From NCBI RefSeq assembly GCF_020804225.1, contig NZ_WJBI01000007.1:1-64000 (forward strand): a stretch of DNA of 64,000 nt, read 5' to 3'. Shown here in pieces: positions 5,756 to 53,178 of the stretch. Below the pieces are notes generated by a model that made no database searches, had not been told where the DNA came from, and worked only from the letters and a program-made list of their open reading frames with translations. Position numbers and translations under genes: made by a program. The first letter of the stretch is position 1; every line of letters begins with the position of its first letter. The DNA is from Methanosarcina sp. DH2 (GTDB taxonomy: Archaea > Halobacteriota > Methanosarcinia > Methanosarcinales > Methanosarcinaceae).

Positions 5756-7312
5756 TCACTGATAAGCCTGAATAAGGGGCTCAACTGCTCTCGGGTCCCC
5801 AATTTCAATAAGAATCAGGGCAGTTTCATCCTTAATTTTCAGGTCTTCGGTTTTCAGGTTTTCTATAAGAGGCTCAACCGCCGGTTCTCCCATATTTATA
5901 AGGGCTTCTCTAGCGCTAACTCCAAAGTCTTTATCTGCCAGTTTTTTTATGAAAAACCCTGCAGCTTCCTGATTTTTAGTTTTTCCAAGAGCAAGGAGGG
6001 CTCCGTTTCTTATGCCCATATTCATGGTCTGATTGTCAAACACCATTTTAAGGGTACTTACAGCTTCAGGGCTTCCTATATTTCCAAGAGCTGAGGCTGC
6101 AGCTACCCTTACTTCAACCATTTCCCCATCATCGGTTAGCACTCCGGTTAATGTTTCCGTAGCCTTTGGGCCTCCTATTCCTCCAAGGGCAAGGACAACA
6201 CTTTTTCGGACATCTGCATTTGCGTTCAGGTTATCTTTTCTTCTTCCTTCAGCTTCTTTTCCGCTCGCCAGAACGTCTATCAGCGGCTCTACTGCCGATT
6301 CATTTCCCATTCTACCAAGCGTAAGGGCTGCATTACTCCTTACCGAAGCCTTTGAGTCTCTCAGTCTCTCGATAAGATATGGTACAGCTTCTTCTGCTTC
6401 TAGTTTTCCAAGGGAGACTGCAATACTGCTCCTGATGTAATCTTTCTCGTTATTTTTTAATTCCATCATCAGGGTATCTACGGCTTTTTCATCTCCGAGT
6501 TCTCCAAGTGCCATAGATGCGCTATATTTTGCCAGAGGGTAGTCCCTGGTAAGCATTTTCAGTAAGGGGTCTGTTGCAGCTTTTTCCTTTTCTTGTCCAA
6601 GAGCCATTGCAGCTGCAACTCTTACGTATCCATTTTCGCTTTTAAGAGCGTTAAGGAGTTTTTCAGTTTCGTTCCCCGGTTCTTCAGGGTCAATTTTTGA
6701 AAGTGCAAAGGAAGTATAGAGCGTAGAATTCTGTTCTTCAGCTTTTAGAGCCTCTTCAAGAATATCCGTGTCATTTCCGTATTCCATATTAAGGGATCTT
6801 GCAAGGCTCTCTCGCATGGCTTTATCTTTTGTTTCTATAGCCTGCATAATATCTTTTGGAACTTCTCCCTGACTCTGTTTTCCGGCTTCATCAGCTGCAG
6901 TCCTATTTGAAGCCCCGTTCTCTTCAAAGTTTCCTGAAAGAGTACTTTCCGCTCTTTCATCTCCGGTTTCAAGAAGTGCGAGAAGCATATAACTTTTTAT
7001 TTCTCCCGAGCTTGAATTTCCGGCCTCAATCGATTCAACATTTTCAATCCTTTCAATGAGAGCGTTTGCTGCCAGCTTTCCGAATTTTCCAAGTTCAGCT
7101 ATTGAGTTTAATCTTGTTTCACGGTCACCAGTTTCCAGCCTATTTATGAGATATGTGACCTGATTTTCGCTTGAAACTCCAGCTACTGCTGTGGCGTTCG
7201 TTGCATTTCCATTGCTTTCAATAAACTTATCACCGCTTAAAAGAAGTGAAAAAAATATAGTAAGAGTGATAAGTGCAAATAAAAGAGAAATTTTCCATTT
7301 GACCTGAGACAT
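5756..7312 (-). CDS. HEAT-repeat (PBS-lyase-like) protein with N-terminal membrane anchor
   Basis: The 518-residue protein has a hydrophobic segment at residues 8-25 and a short low-complexity linker. From about residue 45 onward it consists of tandem HEAT-like units of about 31 residues. The repeats show the pattern A-x-x-A-L-G-x-L/I-G and D-x-x-A-V-x-x-L-I (for example ALGELGDEKAVDTL and ALGRMGNESAVEPLI). Such alpha-solenoids act as protein-binding scaffolds. No catalytic residues are evident, so PBS lyase activity is not implied. The amino-terminal segment is either an uncleaved anchor or a signal peptide, placing the solenoid outside the cell. The ATG is at 7312. The partner is unknown. 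Confidence 0.85.
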   Translation of the reverse strand: MSQVKWKISLLFALITLTIFFSLLLSGDKFIESNGNATNATAVAGVSSENQVTYLINRLETGDRETRLNSIAELGKFGKLAANALIERIENVESIEAGNSSSGEIKSYMLLALLETGDERAESTLSGNFEENGASNRTAADEAGKQSQGEVPKDIMQAIETKDKAMRESLARSLNMEYGNDTDILEEALKAEEQNSTLYTSFALSKIDPEEPGNETEKLLNALKSENGYVRVAAAMALGQEKEKAATDPLLKMLTRDYPLAKYSASMALGELGDEKAVDTLMMELKNNEKDYIRSSIAVSLGKLEAEEAVPYLIERLRDSKASVRSNAALTLGRMGNESAVEPLIDVLASGKEAEGRRKDNLNANADVRKSVVLALGGIGGPKATETLTGVLTDDGEMVEVRVAAASALGNIGSPEAVSTLKMVFDNQTMNMGIRNGALLALGKTKNQEAAGFFIKKLADKDFGVSAREALINMGEPAVEPLIENLKTEDLKIKDETALILIEIGDPRAVEPLIQAYQ

Positions 7313-15275: not shown

Positions 15276-15630
15276 ATGAGAATCGTCCTGCTTAATTTTG
15301 AGAATGGATAAAAAGGTAGTTTAAGTTCCGTTTATTAGCCTATGCAAGGAGATTACTTTTTCTTGCGTTTATTTTTACCTTATAGGAAGGTGATCTTTTC
15401 TGAATTTATTTTAATCCTGTTAATCCTGTATAAGAAAGTGATCTTTACTTAATAAGCCTTTGAGTTTCTGACGCTTTAAAAAGGTACGATAGAAAGCATA
15501 AGATAGGATTGATTAACTGGATATTAATGAGTGCCCGGATATAAAAAATAGAGGTACGGTACAAAACCTGAGATAATACAAATTATCGGGTAAAGAAAAA
15601 TGAAACCAATATCTAAAAGAATTGTTTTGA
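15276..15630. other. Intergenic region upstream of srp54
   Basis: The 355-bp gap holds the srp54 promoter on the minus strand and, at its right end, the region downstream of the first initiator tRNA. It contains degenerate repeats of GGAAGGTGATCTTT and AATCCTGT near 15385-15445. I see no gene or clear RNA structure. Confidence 0.4.
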
Positions 15631-15705
15631 TAGCGGGGGATGGATTCGAACCATCGGTCTACGGGTTATGAGCCCGTCGGGATCTCCTGGCTACCCCACC
15701 CCGCT
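15631..15705 (-). tRNA. Initiator tRNA-Met (CAT), copy 1
   Basis: Read on the minus strand the molecule begins AGCGGGG and closes with CCCCGCT followed by discriminator A. The anticodon stem ACGGG/CCCGT encloses the loop CTCATAA with anticodon CAT. The three consecutive G-C pairs next to the anticodon loop (GGG/CCC) mark it as the initiator tRNA rather than elongator Met. CCA is not encoded. Length is 75 bases. Confidence 0.93.
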
Positions 15706-15774
15706 ACAGGGTTTTTGCTTTATTTTGTCCAAAAGGAAAATTATCAGGAAAAGAGTTATCTGAAAGTTCTCTGA

Positions 15775-15849
15775 TAGCGGGGGATGGATTCGAACCATCG
15801 GTCTACGGGTTATGAGCCCGTCGGGATCTCCTGGCTACCCCACCCCGCT
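15775..15849 (-). tRNA. Initiator tRNA-Met (CAT), copy 2
   Basis: This copy is identical to the one at 15631-15705 over the tRNA body and starts 144 bases away. Both are preceded on their own strand by the same short AAAACCCTGT flank, showing recent tandem duplication. A minus-strand TATA box (AAAAGTATATAAG, about 15906-15921) upstream of this copy would give one precursor for both genes. The GGG/CCC anticodon stem identifies it as initiator tRNA. Confidence 0.93.
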
Positions 15850-16061
15850 ACAGGGTTTTATAGGTCAGGCACCTTGCCTGAGACAACTACCTGAACATAC
15901 TAACGATTACTTATATACTTTTCGCTCGATCCATTAATCTTTCCGGAAAATCGGATAACTTTGCATCTGCTTTAGAAGCTTCACAGTTTCAATCCTACCT
16001 TTTTCAGGTTTTTATTCATTTCTAGTTTTGCTGGTTAACCTGGAATTTTCAGGAAAGATAT

Positions 16062-24980: not shown

Positions 24981-27262
24981 CTGAAGAAATGAATCTGAGA
25001 GTAGCTGAGGCTTATCATAAAGATGTGGGCAGGGGAATTGCAAGAATTGATACCCGCCTGATGCAGGAAATGGAGCTTGTAAGCGGGGATATAATTGAAA
25101 TTTCGGGCAAATCCAAGACTTATGCAATTGTCTGGCCGAATGTCGAGCGCGGACAGGAGAACAGGATCAGAATCGACGGAAACCTGCGCAGCAATGCGAA
25201 GGTTGGAATTGATGATAGGGTTACGATTCAGAAAGTCCAGGCAAAACACGCTCAGAGGGTTACACTTGCTCCATCCCAGCCTGTAAGGCTTGTGGGCGGG
25301 GCTCATTATATCCTGAGAATAATCGAGGGCAGACCTCTGAACAAAGGCCAGCAGATAAGGGTTGAAACTGTAAATAACCCTCTGACTTTTGTCGTAGCAT
25401 CTACAAGACCTGCAGGCCCGGTTGTTGTTACCAAAGATACTGAAATTATCATTAAAGAAAAATCCATTGAAGAAATTAAGACGCCTGAAGGTGTATCGTA
25501 CGAAGATATAGGTGGGCTCAGGCGTGAAATCCAGCTTGTCAGGGAAATGATCGAGCTGCCAATGAGGCACCCTGAACTCTTCCAGAAGTTGGGGGTCGAG
25601 CCTCCCAAAGGTGTCCTTCTCCGTGGGCCACCCGGAACGGGCAAGACAATGATTGCAAAGGCAGTTGCAAGCGAAACCGATGCCAATTTTATCACCATCA
25701 GCGGTCCTGAAATCGTTTCCAAATACTATGGAGAAAGTGAACAGAAGCTCCGAGAGATCTTCGAAGAGGCTGAAAAGGACGCACCTTCCATTATCTTTAT
25801 AGACGAAATCGATTCCATTGCTCCCAAACGCAGTGAAGTCACCGGAGAAATGGAAAGAAGGGTCGTTGCCCAGCTACTTTCCCTGATGGATGGGCTCAAG
25901 TCCAGAGGTGAAGTGGTGGTAATCGCTGCCACAAACCGTCCTAACTCCATTGACGAGGCTCTCCGCCGCGGCGGAAGGTTTGACCGGGAGATCGAAATCG
26001 GAATTCCTGACCGGAACGGCAGAAAGCAGATTCTCCTGATCCACACACGAGGCATGCCTCTTGAAGATGAAGTGAGCCTTGGCGAAATTGCAGATGTAAC
26101 CCATGGTTTTGTAGGAGCTGACCTGTCCTCTCTCTGTAAGGAAGCTGCAATGCATGCTCTCAGGAGAATCACTCCTGAAATCGATATCGAAGAGGAGATC
26201 CCGCAGGAAATCATTGACAACCTCATGGTCACCAGGGAAGACTTCAGAGAAGCCCTGAAGAACATCGAACCTTCGGCAATGAGGGAAGTCTACATTGAAG
26301 TTTCGCATGTGGGCTGGGATGATATAGGTGGACTTGAAAAAGCAAAACAGGAACTTATCGAGTCTGTGGAATGGCCCCTCAAGTATCCTGAAATGTTCAA
26401 GATTGTCAGTATAAAACCTCCAAGAGGTATACTTCTGTTCGGACCTCCGGGTACGGGCAAGACCCTGCTTGCAAAAGCCGTTGCAAGCGAAAGTGAGGCT
26501 AACTTCATCAGCATTAAGGGCCCCGAACTACTCAGCAAGTATGTGGGAGAATCCGAGCGTGCAATCAGGGAAACATTCAGGAAAGCAAAGCAGGCTGCTC
26601 CGACTGTAATCTTCTTTGACGAGATTGACTCGATTGCTCCTCAAAGAAGCTCCGTTTCCGACACTCACGTTTCCGAAAGGGTGGTCAGCCAGATCCTTAC
26701 GGAACTTGATGGGATAGAGGAACTCAAGGATGTAATCATAGTCGCTGCTACAAATCGGCCGGACATGGTAGATCCTGCTCTCCTCAGACCTGGCCGCTTT
26801 GACAGGCTTATTTACATCAAGCCTCCTGGAAAAGAAGGCAGGGAGAAGATCTTTGAGATCCACACAAAAGAAAAACCCCTTGCAGAAGATGTAAAGCTCT
26901 CAGAACTTGCTGATATGACCGAGGGATATGTGGGTGCAGATATCGAAGGCATCTGCAGGGAAGCTGCAATGCTCGCCCTCAGGGAAATAGTTACTCCGGG
27001 TATCGACCGAAAGGGCATTCAGGAGAGAGCAGGAGATGTTCGGCTTTCCAAAAAACACTTCGAAAAAGCAATTCGCCGTGTAAAGCCTACAACCTCCAGA
27101 GAAACACTGAATGCGTATGAAAAGAGTGCCGAACTCTTTGCCAGGTATGCAACTGAGTTTGAGGAAGAAGCTTCCGAAGTAAAACAAGAGAAGTCTGAAT
27201 CAAAAGAACAGGAAAATAAAATAGAGGGAAAAGAAATCCCAAGTTTTCTGCAGGCTGAGTGA
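24977..27262 (+). CDS. cdc48: Cdc48/VAT-type AAA+ ATPase
   Basis: The 761-residue protein is the archaeal Cdc48/p97 (VAT) unfoldase, a hexameric ring that extracts and unfolds proteins, often for the proteasome. Residues 1 to about 165 form the double-psi barrel N domain. The D1 ATPase has Walker A GPPGTGKT at 217-224 and Walker B IIFIDEID at 272-279. The D2 ATPase repeats both (GPPGTGKT and VIFFDEID). The carboxyl tail is acidic and lysine rich, ending IPSFLQAE. It overlaps the upstream regulator gene by 4 bases, and a hairpin terminator follows. Confidence 0.95.
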
Positions 27263-27285
27263 GACTTTGCCTGAAATGCCGAAGT

Positions 27286-27307
27286 GCCGGTAAATGCCGG
27301 CTTTTTT
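27286..27307 (+). terminator. Terminator after cdc48
   Basis: GCCGG (27286-27290) pairs with CCGGC (27297-27301) across a 6-base loop and is followed by six T residues. It lies 24 bases after the cdc48 stop and marks the end of the regulator-cdc48 operon. Confidence 0.65.
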
Positions 27308-27432
27308 AATTTTTATTAAAAAGAGTAATCATTTCAATTAATAGCCTCTTGATTTCAATTAATGGTCTTATTGATTTGAGTAGTACTCATTTAAGAAACT
27401 CAAGACGCATAACTTAATAATGATGTGATGAG

Positions 27433-27957
27433 ATGGACAGAGACAGGAGAAAAAGAAGTTTTTTCGATGAAATATTCGGAATTGATCCCCTGAAGGATAT
27501 GGAAGAAATATTTGAGCGCCTTAGCACAGCTATGGGAATGAGCATGGATAACTTCGGGCAGCATCCCTTTGTTTACGGTTTTTCCGTAACCCAGCGTCCA
27601 GGGGAAGAGCCTGAAATCCGGGAATTCGGAAATATTCCGATGTTTGAGCAGACGGAGACCGGAGAAAAACGGTACCTTGACATAAGAAAACCCCTTATTG
27701 ATGTACTGGAAACCGAGGAAACAGTCCATGTGATTGCCGAGATGCCGGGCATCGAGAAAGAAAATATTCAACTGAACGCAACTGATTTAATACTTGACAT
27801 CGAAACATTAGATGGGAATCCAAAATATTCCGAGCGTGTGGAACTGCCCATAAAGGTGGACCCCCAGAGCGCTAAAGCCACATATAAGAATGGTGTGCTG
27901 GAAGTTACCTTTAACCGGCTGGAATCCAGTTCCCGAACTTCGATCAATATAGAGTGA
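27433..27957 (+). CDS. Hsp20/GvpH-like small heat-shock protein, copy 1
   Basis: The 174-residue protein has an amino-terminal region with the F-V-Y-G-F-S-V-T-Q-R-P-G-E-E-P motif of archaeal GvpH-like proteins. An alpha-crystallin domain follows (about residues 92-172) with V-I-A-E-M-P-G-I-E-K-E-N-I and Y-K-N-G-V-L-E-V-T-F. These proteins are ATP-independent holdase chaperones, and gas-vesicle GvpH is a member, although no other gas-vesicle gene occurs here. The ATG is at 27433. A closely related second copy follows after 31 bases. Confidence 0.87.
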   Translation: MDRDRRKRSFFDEIFGIDPLKDMEEIFERLSTAMGMSMDNFGQHPFVYGFSVTQRPGEEPEIREFGNIPMFEQTETGEKRYLDIRKPLIDVLETEETVHVIAEMPGIEKENIQLNATDLILDIETLDGNPKYSERVELPIKVDPQSAKATYKNGVLEVTFNRLESSSRTSINIE

Positions 27958-27988
27958 TTCGGGAGCGAGAGGAAAATAAGAGGTAATA

Positions 27989-28486
27989 ATGGTGGGCACA
28001 AAAAAAAGAAAGGATTTCTTTGAAGATTTTGGGTCTGAACTTTTTGACAACCTGGAAGAGATGATCGAAGCCCTCCTGGAAGAAATGGGAGAGTCCGTCC
28101 CCTTTGTTTACGGATTTTCGATCATTCACCGCCCGGGGGAAGATCCTGAACTCCGGGAATTCGGAAACGTTCCGGAATACTCTCAAAACGAAGAGAACTT
28201 CTTTACCCCAGAAACAAAAGAACCTTTAATTGACATATTTGAAAATGAGGACATGGTGCATGTACTTGCAGAATTCCCGGAGACTGAAAAGGAAAATCTC
28301 CTGCTGCACGCTACATCTCAACACCTTGAAATTAAAGTCCTTGGGCTTTCTGAATATTCCGAAGACGTAGAACTCCCCGTCCTTGTGGATCCGAAGAGTG
28401 CAAAAGCAAGTTACAAAAATGGGGTGCTTGAGATCACCTTCAGGCGTTGCCCCGAAGAAAGTCCTGTAGCAATAGAGATCAATTAA
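27989..28486 (+). CDS. Hsp20/GvpH-like small heat-shock protein, copy 2
   Basis: The 165-residue product is a paralogue of the preceding gene. It keeps F-V-Y-G-F-S-I-I-H-R-P-G-E-D-P in the amino half and Y-K-N-G-V-L-E-I-T-F at the end of the alpha-crystallin domain. The pair arose by tandem duplication and has diverged considerably. An AGAGGT site precedes the ATG at 27989, and the short 31-base gap indicates one transcript. The two proteins may form mixed oligomers and pass clients to the Cdc48 unfoldase encoded just upstream; that functional link is inference. Confidence 0.87.
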   Translation: MVGTKKRKDFFEDFGSELFDNLEEMIEALLEEMGESVPFVYGFSIIHRPGEDPELREFGNVPEYSQNEENFFTPETKEPLIDIFENEDMVHVLAEFPETEKENLLLHATSQHLEIKVLGLSEYSEDVELPVLVDPKSAKASYKNGVLEITFRRCPEESPVAIEIN

Positions 28487-30038
28487 TTATAGAAAAGACA
28501 GAGAACCCCTTTCAGGGTGAAGGACAGGAAACAAAGCCTGAACCCTGATAAATATGCTCATTATAACCAGCAATACAGAAGATTATTGTTTTTCTCCTCT
28601 TTACTATGAAAGAGAAACAATTATGAACCTCTTTTAGCCATTTTTAATTATAAAAGAGAAAATAATTCTGGACTTTTTTATCAGCAGTTTCTACTAATGG
28701 CATTTTACGGATCTTTGTATTTTAATTCACTATACCTTTTTATCTTTGACCTAGAATGTAGTTTGTTGGTTCGCATAGATCTTTGTGTTAATTACCAAAA
28801 CGGTTGCAAAGATCTGTCTGATGATAGATATGCTGTACTCTATCGACCTTTTACTGATCGGTGGGAACAGGTCTGGCGAAGGTTTCATTGGCGGCGTACT
28901 CTGTGCTTGCGGAATTGGGCTCATCTATGTAGCGGTTCACTGCGCCTTTTTATCTGGCACATGTACTTTTTAAATATACGTCGTTTTATAATAGCTATGG
29001 AGTTTTTAAAGTCCGCCAGGTAAATTTTGTAATTATCATTCATTATCAGGAACCTATTCCTGAAAACATTTTCAGAACACTTCACTGACAGTTTCAGACA
29101 GAAAGTTTCGAAGAATTATGTTAGATATACTCTTTTCCTTTTTGTGAACTTTTTTTGTCAATCATTTCTTTTTTTTGACAAAAAACTTTTTTTCGAGTTT
29201 CTTTCTATTTTGATTTTTTTTACTTTCAATGCGCACAATTCTCTTTTTTATCTATTTAATTCATTTTATCTGCAAGTTTCATTTTTTTGGTATACAATCA
29301 TATATATTTAAATATAGAATTAATTCAAACGAGCCTGCTACTGAATCATTCTCTGTTGCTTTCTCAAACTAAATCTTCTGATTCACAGTTTTAATGATTT
29401 AAATAAATTATACTGATCGAGGGGGTAACTTATCAATTAATTTAGTTAACTTTTCTGATCAAATTGCTACTCAAAAAGGAAAAAAAATTTCTCTGACCTT
29501 TATTTTTCATATTTTTTTCTCGAAATTGCTGTTTTTCTTTATAGTGTTTTTTGGAAATATTCAAATATTTGAGAATCCACATGGAAATTAGTGAACCTTA
29601 TGCTATCGATTTAGTCCTTCATATTTATTTAGTTCTAATTTGGAGTACTTCGCATACATTCCATTAAACCTCTATCAAGATAGAATCGGTAGCATTAAGA
29701 ACTGAGTATATCTAAAATTTCAATCAGGAAAGCGGGATGTACTTTAAATTATCTAATAAATCTGAAGTTCTGAAAGGGAGGTATCTACTGTAATAATGGA
29801 ATAATTTGGGAAGATTTCGTGTGCAATTTTGGACGCAAAATAGTTTGCTTGATACTGAAGATGTGTCCAGTAAAAACCGAAACATTTTTACTATATGACA
29901 AAAGAGTATACGCGAGGAAATATAAGATTACATTATATCTTTATTTTCTATGTGGATTGAATTCTGGATTGAAACTTTTGAACCTGACTAGTATTCACTA
30001 TTAATAACCAAAAACTACAGAGGTTGGGTTGATGATTA
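28487..30038. other. 1.55-kb AT-rich intergenic region upstream of mrp
   Basis: This is the longest gene-free stretch of the window. It contains a 146-bp relic of mrpB (listed separately). It also holds a strong TATA-like TATATATTTAAATATAG at about 29306-29322, many poly-T and poly-A runs, and another TATA-like ACATTATATC at about 29929-29938, roughly 100 bases before mrpA. The short open frame at 29819-30004 has no ribosome-binding site and is not called. A long mrp leader, an unlisted small RNA or decayed DNA are all possible. Confidence 0.5.
28789..28934 (+). pseudogene. Relic of mrpB (5' third of the gene)
   Basis: Bases 28789-28934 align without gaps to 32457-32602, the first 49 codons of the intact mrpB. 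There are 7 differences in 146 positions, by my count. Five of the seven are synonymous and two change residues (Pro to Ser and Gly to Glu). Homology starts just inside the mrpB start codon and ends abruptly at GTAGCG, after which the sequence is unrelated. The copy has no full reading frame for a functional subunit. Confidence 0.85.
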
Positions 30039-32450
30039 ATGGATCCATTTAATGCAATAGTAATAGCTGTCTTTTTACCATTTATACTCGCATGGACATT
30101 ACCTGTATTATATCGCGTATTCAAACAGAGGATTGGCTGGATTTCGGCACTTATCGCATTTACGTGTTTTGTGCTGAATGCTCAGGTAATCCCGTACGCT
30201 ATGGCAGGCACTCCTGTAAAGGGTTCGTGGGACTGGATGCCGACAGCTGGTCTATCCTTAGACTTTTACGGAGACGGCATGGCTGTTCTCCTGGCATTAA
30301 TCGTTTCAGGCGTTGGTGTTATCATCATGTCCTATTCAAACGGTTATATGTCCACAAAGGAAGATCTGCCAAGGTACTACCAGTGGCTCTTACTCTTTAT
30401 GGGTGCAATGCTGGGCATTGCCTATACAGATAATACGATCCAGATGTTTGTTTTCTGGGAACTGACTAGTATAACATCTTTCATGCTTATCGGATACTGG
30501 AGAGAAAGACCGGAATCCGTATACGGCGCAACCAAGGCTTTTCTGATAACTGCCGGTGGCGGACTTCTAATGTTCGCAGGTTTCCTGATGCTCAGGGTTG
30601 TTACAGGCACCTATGGAATCTCTGAAGTCGCTCAGAACTCCGAAATCCTTTCAACATTCCATGGAAGTCCGTTTTATGTTGCAATCCTTGTTCTGATCTT
30701 CCTGGGAGCCGCTTCCAAATCTGCTCAGGGACCGTTCTATATATGGCTGCCCAATGCAATGGAAGCTCCGACCCCTGTCAGTGCTTTCCTGCACTCGGCT
30801 ACAATGGTCAAGGCTGGTGTCTATCTGGTTGCAAGGATGCACCCCATCCTTTCGGGTACTCCCGAATGGTTGATTCTGGTTTCAGGAACAGGTATGATAA
30901 CCATGGTGATGGCAGGTTTCCTGGCTTTCAGGCAGACCGACATCAAAGCTATTCTGGCTTACTCAACAATTAGCCAGCTGGCCTATCTGATGACTATGTA
31001 TGGTTACAGTACTGCAGAACACCCGGGATTGGGCTTTGCTGCAGCAACCTTCCACCTGTTGAACCACTCAACCTTCAAAGCTACCCTCTTCCTGGTAGCA
31101 GGTATTGTGGCTCACGAGGCGACAACCAGAGATATCAGAAAACTGGGCGGTTTGCGTAAAGAAATGCCAAAAACGTTTATAGTTGCGGTGATCGCAGCGG
31201 CCTCAATGGCAGGTGTCCCCCCACTTAACGGGTTCTTGAGCAAGGAAATGTTCTATGAGACATCCGTTGAGATCGGGGCGCTGGTTTCGGAAACTTATGG
31301 AGGTCCATGGGCTATTGTCTTCCCGGCTGTCGCAGTGCTCGGTGGTGTATTTACTCTTATGTACTCTATCAAACTGATAGACGGGATATTCCTTGGGCAT
31401 AGGACCCACGACCATGATGTCCCTCACCACATTCACGATGCTCCCTGGGTCATGCTAGCTCCTGCAGTTTTCCTTGCAGGTCTGATCATCTTCTTCGGGC
31501 TCTATCCCAAATTCCCGGTTGAAACCCTGATTCAGCCTGCCTACAGCGGCCTTGTCCCGCATGCAGAACACCTTCATATACAGCTCTGGCATGGAATTAC
31601 CACACCGCTTCTGATGACGATAGCAACCTTTGCCATCGGTATTGTGCTTTACAAGTTCTATGACTCAATAGCTGCCTGGCAGAACAGCTTCAATGCAAAG
31701 CTTCCCTGGGTTAGCGTGAACTACTGGTATGACGCAACCGTAAACAATGCAAAAGGCATAGCTGCCAAGTTCGGAGCAGTTACTCAGCCAGGACCTATCG
31801 GAGGTTATATCAAAGCCGCAATGCTTTTCATGATCTTCCTGATCCTGTGGCCGGTGTATACCCAGGGTATAAGCCTGGGAAGTATCTTCCCTGCAGGGCT
31901 GAATTTCAATTCACAGCCTTATGAGATCGTACTTTATGCTCTGATGATTGTAGCAGCGCTCGGTGCTACGGTAATCCCGAGATATTTGCCTGCAGTCCTG
32001 TCTCTCTCGGCTCTGGGTTTCCTGGTGTCCCTGCTTTACATGTACCTGAAGGCTCCTGACCTTGCAATGACACAGGTTTGTGTAGAAACACTGTCAACCA
32101 TTATCTTCATCCTGGCAATCATTAAGATTCCTCAAAAATTCAAGGAACCCATGCCAGCGGGTAAGGTTATGGTGAATTTTGCAATCTCGGCAGTAGTTAC
32201 ATTTGCGGTTTTTGCCTTAATGGTAAATGCAAATGCTGGAATGCTGGCACCGTTTGAGTCCTTCTCTCACTATTTCATAGATAAGAGCCTGCAAATGACA
32301 GGTGGACTTAACGTCGTCAACGTGATAGTCGTGGACTTCAGAGGGTATGATACCATAGGAGAAATTTCAGTCCTTTCCCTTGCAGCCCTTGGTGTCTATA
32401 ACCTGATCCTGAGCAGAGCTGGAAAAGCTGAGGGAGGTGAAGAAGAGTGA
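30039..32450 (+). CDS. mrpA: Na+/H+ antiporter subunit MrpA
   Basis: The 803-residue, strongly hydrophobic protein is the large subunit of the multisubunit Mrp antiporter, homologous to NuoL of complex I. It has about 20 membrane helices. The core antiporter region (about 110-420) contains the conserved charged helices WELTSITSFMLIGYW, GPFYIWLPNAMEAPTPVSAFLHSATMVKAG and LAYSTISQLAYL. The carboxyl third carries the MrpA-specific extension with KAPDLAMTQVCVETL. The ATG at 30039 is the only possible start, since an in-frame TGA lies two codons upstream. A GGG at about 30026 is a weak ribosome-binding site. In acetate-grown marine methanosarcinas, Mrp adjusts the Na+/H+ ratio for ATP synthase. 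Confidence 0.95.
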   Translation: MDPFNAIVIAVFLPFILAWTLPVLYRVFKQRIGWISALIAFTCFVLNAQVIPYAMAGTPVKGSWDWMPTAGLSLDFYGDGMAVLLALIVSGVGVIIMSYSNGYMSTKEDLPRYYQWLLLFMGAMLGIAYTDNTIQMFVFWELTSITSFMLIGYWRERPESVYGATKAFLITAGGGLLMFAGFLMLRVVTGTYGISEVAQNSEILSTFHGSPFYVAILVLIFLGAASKSAQGPFYIWLPNAMEAPTPVSAFLHSATMVKAGVYLVARMHPILSGTPEWLILVSGTGMITMVMAGFLAFRQTDIKAILAYSTISQLAYLMTMYGYSTAEHPGLGFAAATFHLLNHSTFKATLFLVAGIVAHEATTRDIRKLGGLRKEMPKTFIVAVIAAASMAGVPPLNGFLSKEMFYETSVEIGALVSETYGGPWAIVFPAVAVLGGVFTLMYSIKLIDGIFLGHRTHDHDVPHHIHDAPWVMLAPAVFLAGLIIFFGLYPKFPVETLIQPAYSGLVPHAEHLHIQLWHGITTPLLMTIATFAIGIVLYKFYDSIAAWQNSFNAKLPWVSVNYWYDATVNNAKGIAAKFGAVTQPGPIGGYIKAAMLFMIFLILWPVYTQGISLGSIFPAGLNFNSQPYEIVLYALMIVAALGATVIPRYLPAVLSLSALGFLVSLLYMYLKAPDLAMTQVCVETLSTIIFILAIIKIPQKFKEPMPAGKVMVNFAISAVVTFAVFALMVNANAGMLAPFESFSHYFIDKSLQMTGGLNVVNVIVVDFRGYDTIGEISVLSLAALGVYNLILSRAGKAEGGEEE

Positions 32451-32893
32451 CCACAATAATTACCAAAACGGTTGCAAAGATCTGTCTGATGATAGATATG
32501 CTGTACTCTATCGACCTTTTGCTGATCGGTGGAAACAGGCCTGGCGGAGGTTTCATTGGTGGTGTACTCTGTGCTTGCGGAATCGGGCTCATCTATGTAG
32601 CGTATGGGCTAGATGATATCAAGAAAATCTGGAACCCTGACTGGCATACCTGGTTTGGCTACGGACTCCTGTTTGCAAGCATTACAGCATGGTCTCCTTT
32701 ATTTGCAGGCCACAACTACTTCAGAAGTGCATTTGATTTCATTCCTGTAGTAGTGGGAGGTATTCATCTTGGTGAGCTTGAACTGGTTTCTTCCATGTTC
32801 TTTGACCTTGGTGTGTACTTTGTGGTGGTCGGAGGACTGCTGTTTATCGTGACTAAAGTAGGAACTGACAAAGCTTCGGAGGGTGGAAAATGA
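32447..32893 (+). CDS. mrpB: Na+/H+ antiporter subunit MrpB
   Basis: The 148-residue membrane protein has about four helices and the MrpB pattern P-G-G-G-F-I-G-G-V. It starts inside the mrpA stop (4-base overlap, GTGA) and ends inside the mrpC start. The first codon is GTG at 32447. It is needed for assembly of the seven-subunit antiporter. A 146-bp copy of its 5' part occurs as a relic upstream of the operon. Confidence 0.93.
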   Translation: MTTIITKTVAKICLMIDMLYSIDLLLIGGNRPGGGFIGGVLCACGIGLIYVAYGLDDIKKIWNPDWHTWFGYGLLFASITAWSPLFAGHNYFRSAFDFIPVVVGGIHLGELELVSSMFFDLGVYFVVVGGLLFIVTKVGTDKASEGGK

Positions 32894-33315
32894 ATAACAC
32901 TCTTCTCGCACTTACCATTTCCCTGCTCTTTGGAATCGGAACTTTCCTGATTTTCCGCAGGGATATGATGAAAGTTATCATCGGTTTCGGGATCATATCC
33001 CATGCCATAAACCTTTACATAGTTGCAGGCGGTGTCTTCACCGACGGTACACTTGTGCCGATTCTGGAGCACCATCAAGCTGTTGAGGGTCTTAATCAGG
33101 GCCTTATCTATAATGATAACCTGACAGCTGGAATAATCGGGCCAATGACAACCAATCCGTATATGGACTTCGTGGATCCTCTTGTGCAAGCTCTCGTGCT
33201 CACTGCAATCGTAATCGGGCTTGCAACCACTGCTTTCGTATTGACCCTTGCATACCGCATTAATGAAGAATACGGTACTGTTGATGTCGGGGAACTCAGG
33301 AGGTTATGGGGATGA
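32890..33315 (+). CDS. mrpC: Na+/H+ antiporter subunit MrpC
   Basis: The 141-residue protein is the NuoK-like MrpC subunit, with three membrane helices (about residues 4-20, 28-48 and 95-118). The pattern GFGIISHAINLYIVAGG and the D-P-L-V-Q-A-L-V-L-T-A-I-V-I-G segment are typical. Its loop between helices two and three is expanded, as in other MrpC proteins. It overlaps mrpB by 4 bases and mrpD by 10 bases. Confidence 0.93.
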   Translation: MNNTLLALTISLLFGIGTFLIFRRDMMKVIIGFGIISHAINLYIVAGGVFTDGTLVPILEHHQAVEGLNQGLIYNDNLTAGIIGPMTTNPYMDFVDPLVQALVLTAIVIGLATTAFVLTLAYRINEEYGTVDVGELRRLWG

Positions 33316-34880
33316 GCTTTTTAATGCAGCATCTGCCCATGTTCCTGATTGCCATACCTTTGCTAATGGCTCCTCTTACTATCCTGAGTAAGAGTTACCC
33401 GGGATTCCAAAAGGCTCTTGATATAATAGTGAGTCTCGGTCTGCTGGCTTTAAGCGGACTACTTATCTATACTGTCTGGAACGATGGAATCATAGTATAT
33501 GAGGTCGGTGAGTTCGGAAAGTACGGAATCGTGCTTGTAGCCGATCTTTTAAGTTCAAGTATGGTTGTCCTGAGTTGCCTTATAGGCTGTATGGGTCTGA
33601 TTTATTCCTATGATTACATAGAGAGTAAATCCCTGAACCTGACCTACCATTCTCTGTACAACCTTATGCTTGCAGGCATCAACGGAATCTTCCTGACAGG
33701 CGACATTTTCAACCTGTTTGTCTTCTTCGAGATCATGCTGCTTTCTTCAGGAGCTTTGATCGTTGCAAACGAAACCTCAAAGGTTACGAAGATCTCGGAT
33801 AAGATGGAAGCTACAATGAAGTACATTGTCCTGAACATGCTCGGTTCAAACGCGATGCTGCTTGCAGTTACTTCCCTGTATGCATCCGTTGGTTCCCTGA
33901 ACATGGCTGACATTGCACTTAAGGTCAGGATTCTTGCTGAAGCAGGTACAATGCCCTGGCACATGTACGCTATTGGTCTGCTCTTCATCATCGTATTCGC
34001 TGGAAAAGCAGCAGTCTTTCCTCTGCACTACTGGCTTCCTGATGTTCACCCAACAGCACCGTCCCCGATCAGTGCGATGCTCAGTGGTGTGATTATCAAA
34101 ATCGGAGCCTATGGTATACTCAGGATCCTGTTTGTTATCTTTGCACCTCTCAAAGGAGTGTACGGACCGATCATTTTACTGCTCGCTCTTATCACTATAG
34201 GACTTGGAGCTACATCTGCAATAGGACAGAATGACGTCAAACGTTTGCTGGCTTATTCCAGTGTATCGCAGATAGGATATGTTTTCCTGGGTTTCGGAAT
34301 GGGAGCGATTGCACTCGATGCAGGTGAAATTGCAGGCGGGACTTTAATTGTTGCGGCATCCTTTGTCTACATGGTAAACCATGCCATCGCCAAGAGTATG
34401 TTATTCCTTACTTCGGGTGGAATTATTCACCATGCAGAAACCAGGGACATGCGTAAGATGGGAGGTATGATCAACAGCAATCCCTTAATGGCTTTTTCCT
34501 TCCTCGTAGGGGCCATGTCCATTGGCGGAGTACCCCCGATGGGCGGATTTATTGGTAAGTTCTCCCTCTTCGATGCAGGACTCAGATCGGCATTCTATCT
34601 CCCTATCGCTATTGCGTTACTATTTGCAGTCTTTACTCTGTTCTATATGTTCAGAGGCTGGATGCTTATGTTCTGGGGAGAAAGGGACCCGCAGTATGGG
34701 GAATACTCCCATCACAAACTGTCCATGTTGATCGTAGGTCCGATCATGCTTCTGGCAGCTCTTGTGTTCATTCTCGGACTATTTGCCAACCCGGTCCTTG
34801 ACATTGCACAGACGATAGCGATGCAGGTCACTGATCCGCAGCCGTATATTGATGCAGTATTATTGAGGGTGATTAGATGA
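33306..34880 (+). CDS. mrpD: Na+/H+ antiporter subunit MrpD
   Basis: The 524-residue protein is the second antiporter-like subunit, homologous to NuoM/NuoN, with about 14 helices. It has the conserved proton-channel elements F-N-L-F-V-F-F-E-I-M-L-L, K-A-A-V-F-P-L-H-Y-W-L-P-D-V-H-P-T-A-P and A-Y-S-S-V-S-Q-I-G-Y. The frame opens at ATG 33306 inside mrpC (GGAGG lies just upstream); the next ATG, codon 3, is an alternative. Its stop overlaps mrpE by 4 bases. Confidence 0.94.
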   Translation: MGMSFLMQHLPMFLIAIPLLMAPLTILSKSYPGFQKALDIIVSLGLLALSGLLIYTVWNDGIIVYEVGEFGKYGIVLVADLLSSSMVVLSCLIGCMGLIYSYDYIESKSLNLTYHSLYNLMLAGINGIFLTGDIFNLFVFFEIMLLSSGALIVANETSKVTKISDKMEATMKYIVLNMLGSNAMLLAVTSLYASVGSLNMADIALKVRILAEAGTMPWHMYAIGLLFIIVFAGKAAVFPLHYWLPDVHPTAPSPISAMLSGVIIKIGAYGILRILFVIFAPLKGVYGPIILLLALITIGLGATSAIGQNDVKRLLAYSSVSQIGYVFLGFGMGAIALDAGEIAGGTLIVAASFVYMVNHAIAKSMLFLTSGGIIHHAETRDMRKMGGMINSNPLMAFSFLVGAMSIGGVPPMGGFIGKFSLFDAGLRSAFYLPIAIALLFAVFTLFYMFRGWMLMFWGERDPQYGEYSHHKLSMLIVGPIMLLAALVFILGLFANPVLDIAQTIAMQVTDPQPYIDAVLLRVIR

Positions 34881-35374
34881 AGCGTCGTTTGATTACTTAC
34901 ATGGCACTCCCGGTCGTCTGGTGTCTGGTCAGTGGGTATGTAACCATCGGCAGTCTGTTTCTTGGCCTCATCTTCGGAATGATAGTTGTAGAGCCTTTCA
35001 GCAAACTTTACAGGCTGGATGAAGTGGTACACCCGACAGGAGATTGGCTTGCAAAGATTCCCAAGAAAATCAAGTACTTTTATGTACTGATCAAAGAAAT
35101 CATAAAAGCCAATATTGTTGTCGCAAAGATTGTTCTCAGCCCTACAATCAACATCAAACCCGGAATTATCGCGGTTCCCATAAGGGCCAAGACCAATATA
35201 GGCATCACCGGGATTGCAAACACGATTACGTTGACTCCCGGAACCCTGACCGTGGATATATCGGATGACCAATCCATTCTTTATGTCCATTCAATCGATG
35301 CAACCAATCCACAGGGAATCCGTGATTCCATCAGGGATGATCTTGAAAAATATGTTCTGGAGGCATTCGAATGA
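34877..35374 (+). CDS. mrpE: Na+/H+ antiporter subunit MrpE
   Basis: The 165-residue protein has two amino-terminal helices (about 8-45) and a soluble carboxyl domain with the MrpE pattern T-P-G-T-L-T-V-D-I and L-Y-V-H-S-I-D-A. It stabilises the antiporter complex. The start overlaps the mrpD stop as ATGA, and its stop overlaps mrpF by 4 bases. Confidence 0.93.
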   Translation: MKRRLITYMALPVVWCLVSGYVTIGSLFLGLIFGMIVVEPFSKLYRLDEVVHPTGDWLAKIPKKIKYFYVLIKEIIKANIVVAKIVLSPTINIKPGIIAVPIRAKTNIGITGIANTITLTPGTLTVDISDDQSILYVHSIDATNPQGIRDSIRDDLEKYVLEAFE

Positions 35375-35646
35375 TAATCTCACTGGAACAGGCAGATTTC
35401 CTGGCATTGATTGTGCTGGTAGTTGCCACAGCGCCCTGTATTTACAGAGTTCTGTACGGCCCGACCCTTGCTGACAGGATTGCGGCAGAAGACGCCATGG
35501 GTAATGCCCTGTGTGTTATTTTTGCGCTTTACGCCTATCAGGCAAGCTCGATCTTCCTGATGGACGTAGCCATGCTTCTTGCAATCATTTCCTTCGTAGG
35601 GACGGTCATAGTGGCAAAATACCTTGATAAAGGGGAGGTGCTCTGA
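35371..35646 (+). CDS. mrpF: Na+/H+ antiporter subunit MrpF
   Basis: The 91-residue protein has three helices and the MrpF pattern R-V-L-Y-G-P-T-L-A-D-R-I, with a conserved Asp in the middle helix region. The start codon overlaps the mrpE stop (ATGA), and its last base overlaps the first base of mrpG. The size is usual for the family. Confidence 0.93.
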   Translation: MIISLEQADFLALIVLVVATAPCIYRVLYGPTLADRIAAEDAMGNALCVIFALYAYQASSIFLMDVAMLLAIISFVGTVIVAKYLDKGEVL

Positions 35647-35996
35647 TGGCTGGTGAACTGGCGCTAGTTGCAGACATTCTGAGTATCATCAGTCTCATAA
35701 TAGGGATCTTTTTCCTATCTCTGGGTATGATTGGCCTCCTTCGCCTGCCTGATGTCTATAACAGGCTGCATGCAACTACCAAGGTCGGCACCCTGGGAGC
35801 TTTCGGAGTTCTCCTGAGTATAATTCTTCAGGAGGGTGCTACCCCGATGGGCATTAAAGCCCTTACAGTCGCACTTTTCATCCTCCTTACCTCCCCAATC
35901 TCCGGGCACATGATAGCTCGGGCGGCTTACAGGATGGGAGTAAAATGCTGCGAAGGCACTTGCATGGATGAATATGCAGGAAAGAGAAGAAAGTAA
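35646..35996 (+). CDS. mrpG: Na+/H+ antiporter subunit MrpG
   Basis: The 116-residue protein has three helices and the MrpG signature G-L-L-R-L-P-D-V-Y-N-R-L-H-A-T-T-K-V-G-T-L-G, read here as single residues from about position 32. It is the last gene of the operon, and a strong hairpin terminator begins 7 bases after its stop. A short Cys-containing tail (K-C-C-E-G-T-C) at the carboxyl end is unusual for MrpG and may be species specific. Confidence 0.93.
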   Translation: MAGELALVADILSIISLIIGIFFLSLGMIGLLRLPDVYNRLHATTKVGTLGAFGVLLSIILQEGATPMGIKALTVALFILLTSPISGHMIARAAYRMGVKCCEGTCMDEYAGKRRK

Positions 35997-36002
35997 AGAT
36001 TA

Positions 36003-53003: not shown

Positions 53004-53051
53004 CCCGAATTGCGCCTCGCCCGAATTGCGCCTCGCCCGAATTGCGCCTCG
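53004..53051. repeat. Three tandem 16-bp repeats
   Basis: CCCGAATTGCGCCTCG occurs three times without change at 53004-53019, 53020-53035 and 53036-53051. Directly after it, GTCCTTTT (53062-53069) and AAGAGGAC (53080-53087) form a hairpin around CGCTTCGCTC. The block separates the convergent mcrA and mcmA genes and could end the mcmA transcript. Confidence 0.82.
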
Positions 53052-53178
53052 GGAGTACGCGGTCCTTTTCGCTTCGCTCAAGAGGACTAATTTTACGTGA
53101 AATTGCTTCTTTTCTCTCATTCAAAAAATGTAGATGTGTTAACAGTATTCCTTCCATTCCAAATTCATATAATTCCCT

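Follow-up and report, generated by a model that had tools for sequence, protein, structure and literature searches.

Disabled native duplications are listed among the origins of prokaryotic pseudogenes in PMC522871, where the screen applied requires frameshifts or stops. A second kind of event that leaves a piece of a gene in a new place is templated insertion, through microhomology-mediated end joining (MMEJ) or template switching, which is marked by a short insert, a nearby source on the same strand, a small local duplication and the loss of few bases, with microhomology expected at the junctions. Archaea can join ends via microhomology by primase-mediated MMEJ, according to PMC12019639. Besides, M. 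acetivorans is reported to lack non-homologous end joining (NHEJ), and three of five edited strains showed intrachromosomal translocations, for which MMEJ is among the proposed causes (PMC10750270). The gene concerned here, mrpB, encodes a membrane subunit of approximately 130-150 aa (MrpB/MnhB, PF04039) with an invariant NRPGGGF motif.

The mrpB fragment described here lies in a window of 64,000 nucleotides (positions 1 to 64,000 of contig NZ_WJBI01000007.1 of Methanosarcina sp. DH2). With the partial gene duplications treated in PMC522871 it shares that it is a piece of a native gene, that it is intergenic and without the gene start, and that invariant residues are changed; it differs from the pseudogenes covered there in being too short and too young to have acquired frameshifts or stops, and would thus be missed by such a screen. 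The first four of these marks of templated insertion are also present at this locus; no experimental break is involved, and the mechanism has to be read from the final sequence alone. We propose, with a probability of roughly 0.7, that the fragment arose by local, templated copying of 146 bp from the mrpB of its own lineage and is now drifting. Among the papers listed in our literature searches, we found none on this fragment.

The fragment is an ordinary genomic scar, real and above chance. The repeat search aligned it to the resident mrpB over 146 nt without gaps and with 139/146 identical positions (95%), on the same strand and at a start-to-start spacing of 3668 (Table 1). This match cannot be attributed to chance since it has an E value of 4.9e-62 in the whole genome. 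Re-alignment reproduced exactly the ungapped match to the 5' part of mrpB, with seven differences and five of them synonymous, that had been noticed from the letters, and the label of a truncated mrpB copy was right: the copied part spans nt 11-156 of the gene, and the GTG start (32447) and the region before it are missing from the fragment. All differences (28853, 28865, 28872, 28879, 28892, 28895 and 28916) are transitions, of which two are nonsynonymous (P32S and G34E). None of them lies in the first 64 bases, which are the same as in the resident gene; they are confined to the final 82.

Table 1. Positions (window coordinates) of the mrpB fragment, its insertion site and the neighbouring genes.
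Feature	Position	Strand	Basis
Hsp20-family gene, upstream neighbour	27989..28486	+	ORF and Pfam
AT-rich spacer; ~28600-29060 an indel hot-spot, most of the remainder conserved without the fragment	28487..30038		Alignments with relatives
First copy (A) of a short, degenerate duplication in tandem, single in G029	28710..28764	+	Local alignment
Copy B, left half, immediately 5' of the fragment	28778..28788	+	Local alignment
Decaying mrpB fragment, its invariant NRPGGGF motif altered by P32S and G34E	28789..28934	+	Repeat match, tree, Pfam MnhB
Copy B, right half, immediately 3' of the fragment	28935..28969	+	Local alignment
mrpA (803 aa), separating the fragment from mrpB	30039..32450	+	ORF and Pfam
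Resident mrpB, 148 aa	32447..32893	+	Pfam MnhB
Donor-like stretch within resident mrpB	32457..32602	+	Repeat match, tree

The fragment was compared with 13 other mrpB alleles, drawn from nine genomes, of which eight belong to the same genus and the ninth to a different genus in the family, and from four further loci. An origin from another species' allele, as put forward in the sequence-only reading, did not survive alignment with mrpB of other Methanosarcina: the fragment clusters with no different species, and in the phylogeny it is closest to the resident mrpB, as its sister with a support of 94/92, just below the starred level of 95/80. It differs from the resident at seven sites, from the G010 allele at 23 and from the other 12 of the 13 alleles at 25-35. 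Over the first 64 bases, where the resident is identical, every one of the 13 differs at 5-12 sites. G029 agrees with the resident at all of the differing positions (7/7) and G010 at 6/7, and the changes therefore most likely occurred on the branch of the fragment, whose end branch measures 0.051 against 0 for the resident. The reverse case, in which the synonymous differences arose in the resident mrpB under selection, was rejected on this agreement with G029 at 7/7 and on the zero-length end branch. On these comparisons, the sampled species are excluded as donors, and a strain of the same species may have been the source.

Such a source within the species is the alternative that fares best, even if we consider it unlikely. 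The template for the fragment would have been an mrpB allele of the same species or allele class with small differences from the resident, either on DNA from another strain or an allele since replaced in this genome; approximately four to five synonymous differences would have come with it, and the two disabling changes would have followed later. The preference for synonymous sites on which the sequence-only reading built its argument is there, but it is weak as proof of a functional-allele source. In the fragment frame 49 of 144 transitions are synonymous, and at least five synonymous changes out of seven have P = 0.043 when transitions are drawn at random and 0.054 when the observed base changes are redistributed randomly. 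The confinement of the changes to the last 82 bases has P ~0.03, counted for a 64-base gap at either end, and synonymous excess and clustering jointly give P 0.002, for a combination that was picked after seeing the data. The lack of changes on the resident side is itself a slight surprise, with P = 0.03 for a 7:0 split and P = 0.17 for at least six of the seven. A mixed-origin model, in which some changes precede the copying and 92% of these are synonymous (an assumed value), fits best with approximately five earlier changes and has a rough Bayes factor of 5 over a pure relic on the synonymous and nonsynonymous counts alone. An earlier exchange of the mrp operon between lineages, which is probable (see below), also speaks for this source. 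On the other hand, the Bayes factor falls to 2.3 once the one-sided polarity is added, which is too little to outweigh the local source suggested by the closeness of the fragment to mrpB on the same strand. Also against it, one synonymous state of the fragment, the C at 28895, is present in 0/13 other alleles; the other four are found in 1, 1, 10 and 2 of the 13. Mostly synonymous differences in a fragment of 146 bp are thus, taken alone, no evidence of a foreign functional source.

In all six genus relatives with both flanks aligned (G029, G003, G013, G002, G024 and G026), the fragment matches only their own mrpB, so that relatives keep the flanks without the copy, and the intact closest parent, the resident mrpB, lies in the same genome as the fragment. 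The gap between the aligned flanks measures 45 bp in G029 and 298 bp in the window. Copies A and B align to each other with a local score of 41, against a control maximum of 30, with 0/418 control pieces reaching 41; against the single G029 site, copy A scores 52 and copy B, with the fragment removed, scores 60, the control maximum being 40 (418 pieces). Since both copies resemble one G029 site, a tandem duplication took place and the fragment sits inside its second copy. When copy B without the fragment is aligned to G029, approximately three bases are missing at the insertion point. No genome with a fragment-free copy B, from which microhomology at the junctions could be read, was found, and the pre-insertion site is approximated by copy A and G029 only. 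The region 28600-29060 differs in length among relatives, which carry different inserts and tandem runs (the runs in G013 and G024), and is therefore regarded as indel-prone; this comparison rests on pairwise and local alignments, the five-way alignment being unreliable there.

The suggestion that the AT-rich stretch around the fragment is the scar of the event has to be abandoned, because relatives without the fragment conserve most of it: the spacer from ~28967 to 30039 aligns with the fragment-free G003, G013 and G002 at 86-87%. The low GC content of the surroundings is real, at 0.27-0.37 per 500-bp window between 28500 and 30249. The 200 bp that precede mrpA reach 92-97% identity in six relatives and are recognisable in other genera. 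Within this end of the spacer, the non-coding stretch 29820-30038 is conserved across genera, with 13/13 sequences aligned, and contains AAACCGAAACATTTTTACTATATG upstream of mrpA, which we take to resemble an archaeal BRE/TATA promoter. The consensus RNA fold of the conserved stretch had no covariation support, with 1/41 pairs changed on both sides. At the other end of the spacer, Hsp20-family genes at 27433-27957 and 27989-28486 stand in tandem behind a gene for a CDC48-like AAA ATPase, and this pair and the CDC48-like gene are kept upstream of mrp in relatives.

The insertion site also speaks against a larger rearrangement, which we rate as a little less likely again than a conspecific donor. 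In that scenario, a tandem duplication of 3.67 kb, from 28935 to 32602 and comprising the promoter, mrpA and the start of mrpB, would have been followed by a near-total deletion that left only the mrpB end. It predicts the right junction between mrpB and spacer exactly as it is found, and the spacing of 3668 equals the unit length. However, it needs two large events, leaves the match of 28778-28788 to copy A unexplained and does not sit well with a spacer that, minus the fragment, is continuous with G029 to approximately three bases. Nothing resembling a second mrpA end was found: a query of mrpA to mrpG matches, besides itself and the fragment, only 94 bp at 77% in the own genome.

A local templated copy would have arisen as follows. 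In the lineage of this genome, after its split from that of G029, approximately 146 bp of the own mrpB may have been copied 3.67 kb upstream, in the same orientation, into the AT-rich and indel-prone spacer. The target would have been a tandem duplication of approximately 65 bp (copies A and B), with the fragment placed within copy B and approximately three bases lost. Copying during repair or replication is the likely mechanism, by template switching or by microhomology-mediated end joining with a templated insert, and it could have involved two chromosome copies or stayed within a single one; both this repair mechanism and the order of duplication and insertion are our reconstruction. The fragment would then have drifted, taking up seven substitutions, two of them at invariant residues. 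It has diverged by 4.8%, half of what the spacer shows per lineage in comparison with G029 (9.6%), which would be expected for an origin about halfway along the branch since G029. For Methanosarcina, reported to lack NHEJ (PMC10750270), the fragment adds a natural case to the question of how non-homologous joins come about.

The amino acid changes point to decay. P32 and G34 are kept in 22/22 intact MrpB (the resident and 21 of 22 loci, L052 being omitted as its match begins at residue 39), and the fragment has S and E there, at the P and the second G of the NRPGGGF motif. Both changes thus hit invariant residues, and we consider the fragment to be decaying. As to coding constraint, two of seven changes are nonsynonymous (P 0.043-0.054), and both lie at these residues. 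In B. pseudofirmus, the Mrp complex was undetectable with MrpB-P37G (PMC5703873), a change at a proline that may or may not be the counterpart of P32. The short ORF over the fragment (28785-28973, 62 aa) is recognised as MnhB by Pfam (E 2.1e-9) over profile positions 1-49 of 127, that is, approximately one third of the protein, with the start region of the gene absent.

That this ORF or the fragment has a function, be it as a shortened MrpB, as regulatory RNA or in recombination with mrpB, is very improbable. A function would agree with the open frame and with the largely synonymous changes, but the frame is uninformative because 0/144 transitions in it create a stop codon, and the two invariant residues are altered. 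No Rfam family matched 28400-30100 with an E value of 1 or below, and none of the other mrp-bearing relatives searched carries the fragment. A promoter scan of 28480-29100, for bacterial-type promoters only, returned three promoter-like sites against 2.1 expected, none of them clear. We infer that the fragment is a partial gene duplication without a function. As a piece of a native gene that pseudogene screens would overlook, it makes a neat example, and it is otherwise of little consequence.

MrpB is encoded by 9 of the 30 genus genomes, this one included, and DNA matches to the fragment occur in 10 of 59 relatives; in both searches, only the own genome has two matches. The check for a second mrp cluster or the fragment in related genomes thus came back empty, with neither a second mrpB nor the fragment in any of the 29 other genus genomes. 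A mobile vehicle was rejected as well: plasmid records had no match to 28487-30100, the left junction was absent from viral contigs, and no inverted repeats of at least 25 bp were found in 26000-36000, so that the terminal inverted repeats of an insertion sequence or MITE are lacking at that length. In the repeat pairs of diversity-generating retroelements, differences lie at template adenines. The fragment and mrpB are no such pair, since only one of the seven changes falls at an A of the resident.

The mrp operon itself is a mosaic. From ~31800 to 35996, i.e., from the 3' third of mrpA through mrpG, the own genome, G029 and G010 have a divergent allele block in common. Upstream of ~31800, identity to G003, G013, G002, G024 and G026 is mostly 80-97%; over the remainder, as far as the end of mrpG, it is mostly 68-84%, with single 200-bp windows up to 88%; G029 keeps 85-98% per 200-bp window over the block. 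In the tree of the 3' block, the own genome (G000), G029 and G010 stand apart with a support of 100/100 and G025 joins the five others. Trees of upstream genes place G025 outside; the tree of the CDC48 gene is without any starred branch. On these comparisons, the block from the mrpA 3' part to mrpG was probably exchanged between lineages, with a breakpoint inside mrpA.

It is hardly credible that the fragment is a leftover of the mrp cluster displaced at such an exchange, whether a lost second cluster or that of another species. The strong unlikeness of the block in the own genome and G029 to six other genus members would provide the occasion, but a leftover of that kind should fall with G013, G002, G003, G024, G025 and G026. 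The fragment groups with the resident type and is therefore no remnant of a displaced one, and none of the 30 genus genomes searched holds a second cluster. It is equally far-fetched that the fragment and mrpB, as 146-bp direct repeats with 95% identity and no difference over the first 64 bp that flank the mrp promoter region and mrpA, form a reversible switch of mrpA dosage, in which recombination between them would, in a polyploid methanogen, delete or amplify mrpA and its promoter in some chromosome copies and so change antiporter dosage reversibly. The repeat is decaying, which speaks against selection for such a switch.

Other repeats are present on the contig. A stretch of 128 bp is repeated at 100% identity, 476 bp apart (L065:5617-5744 and 6093-6220; C31 69617-69744 and 70093-70220), with the first copy intergenic and the second covering the 3' terminus of a minus-strand FrhB-like gene (L065:6171-7334); it is a second, younger local gene-end copy, in line with a local origin of the mrpB fragment. 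A 61-bp intergenic repeat (92%) links 53033-53093 of the window with C31 69742-69802, where it adjoins the 128-bp copy at 69744, and repeated CCCGAATTGCGCCTCG units occur beside it at ~53005-53050. In a self-scan, nine off-diagonal matches passed the filter in 114 kb of the own contig, against two in 97 kb of G029 and six in 110 kb of G013; no rate is claimed from these counts. Two of the nine are between tRNA pairs, which stand in tandem at 2204-2420 and 15629-15850 and comprise tRNA-Cys (gca) twice and tRNA-Met (cat) twice.
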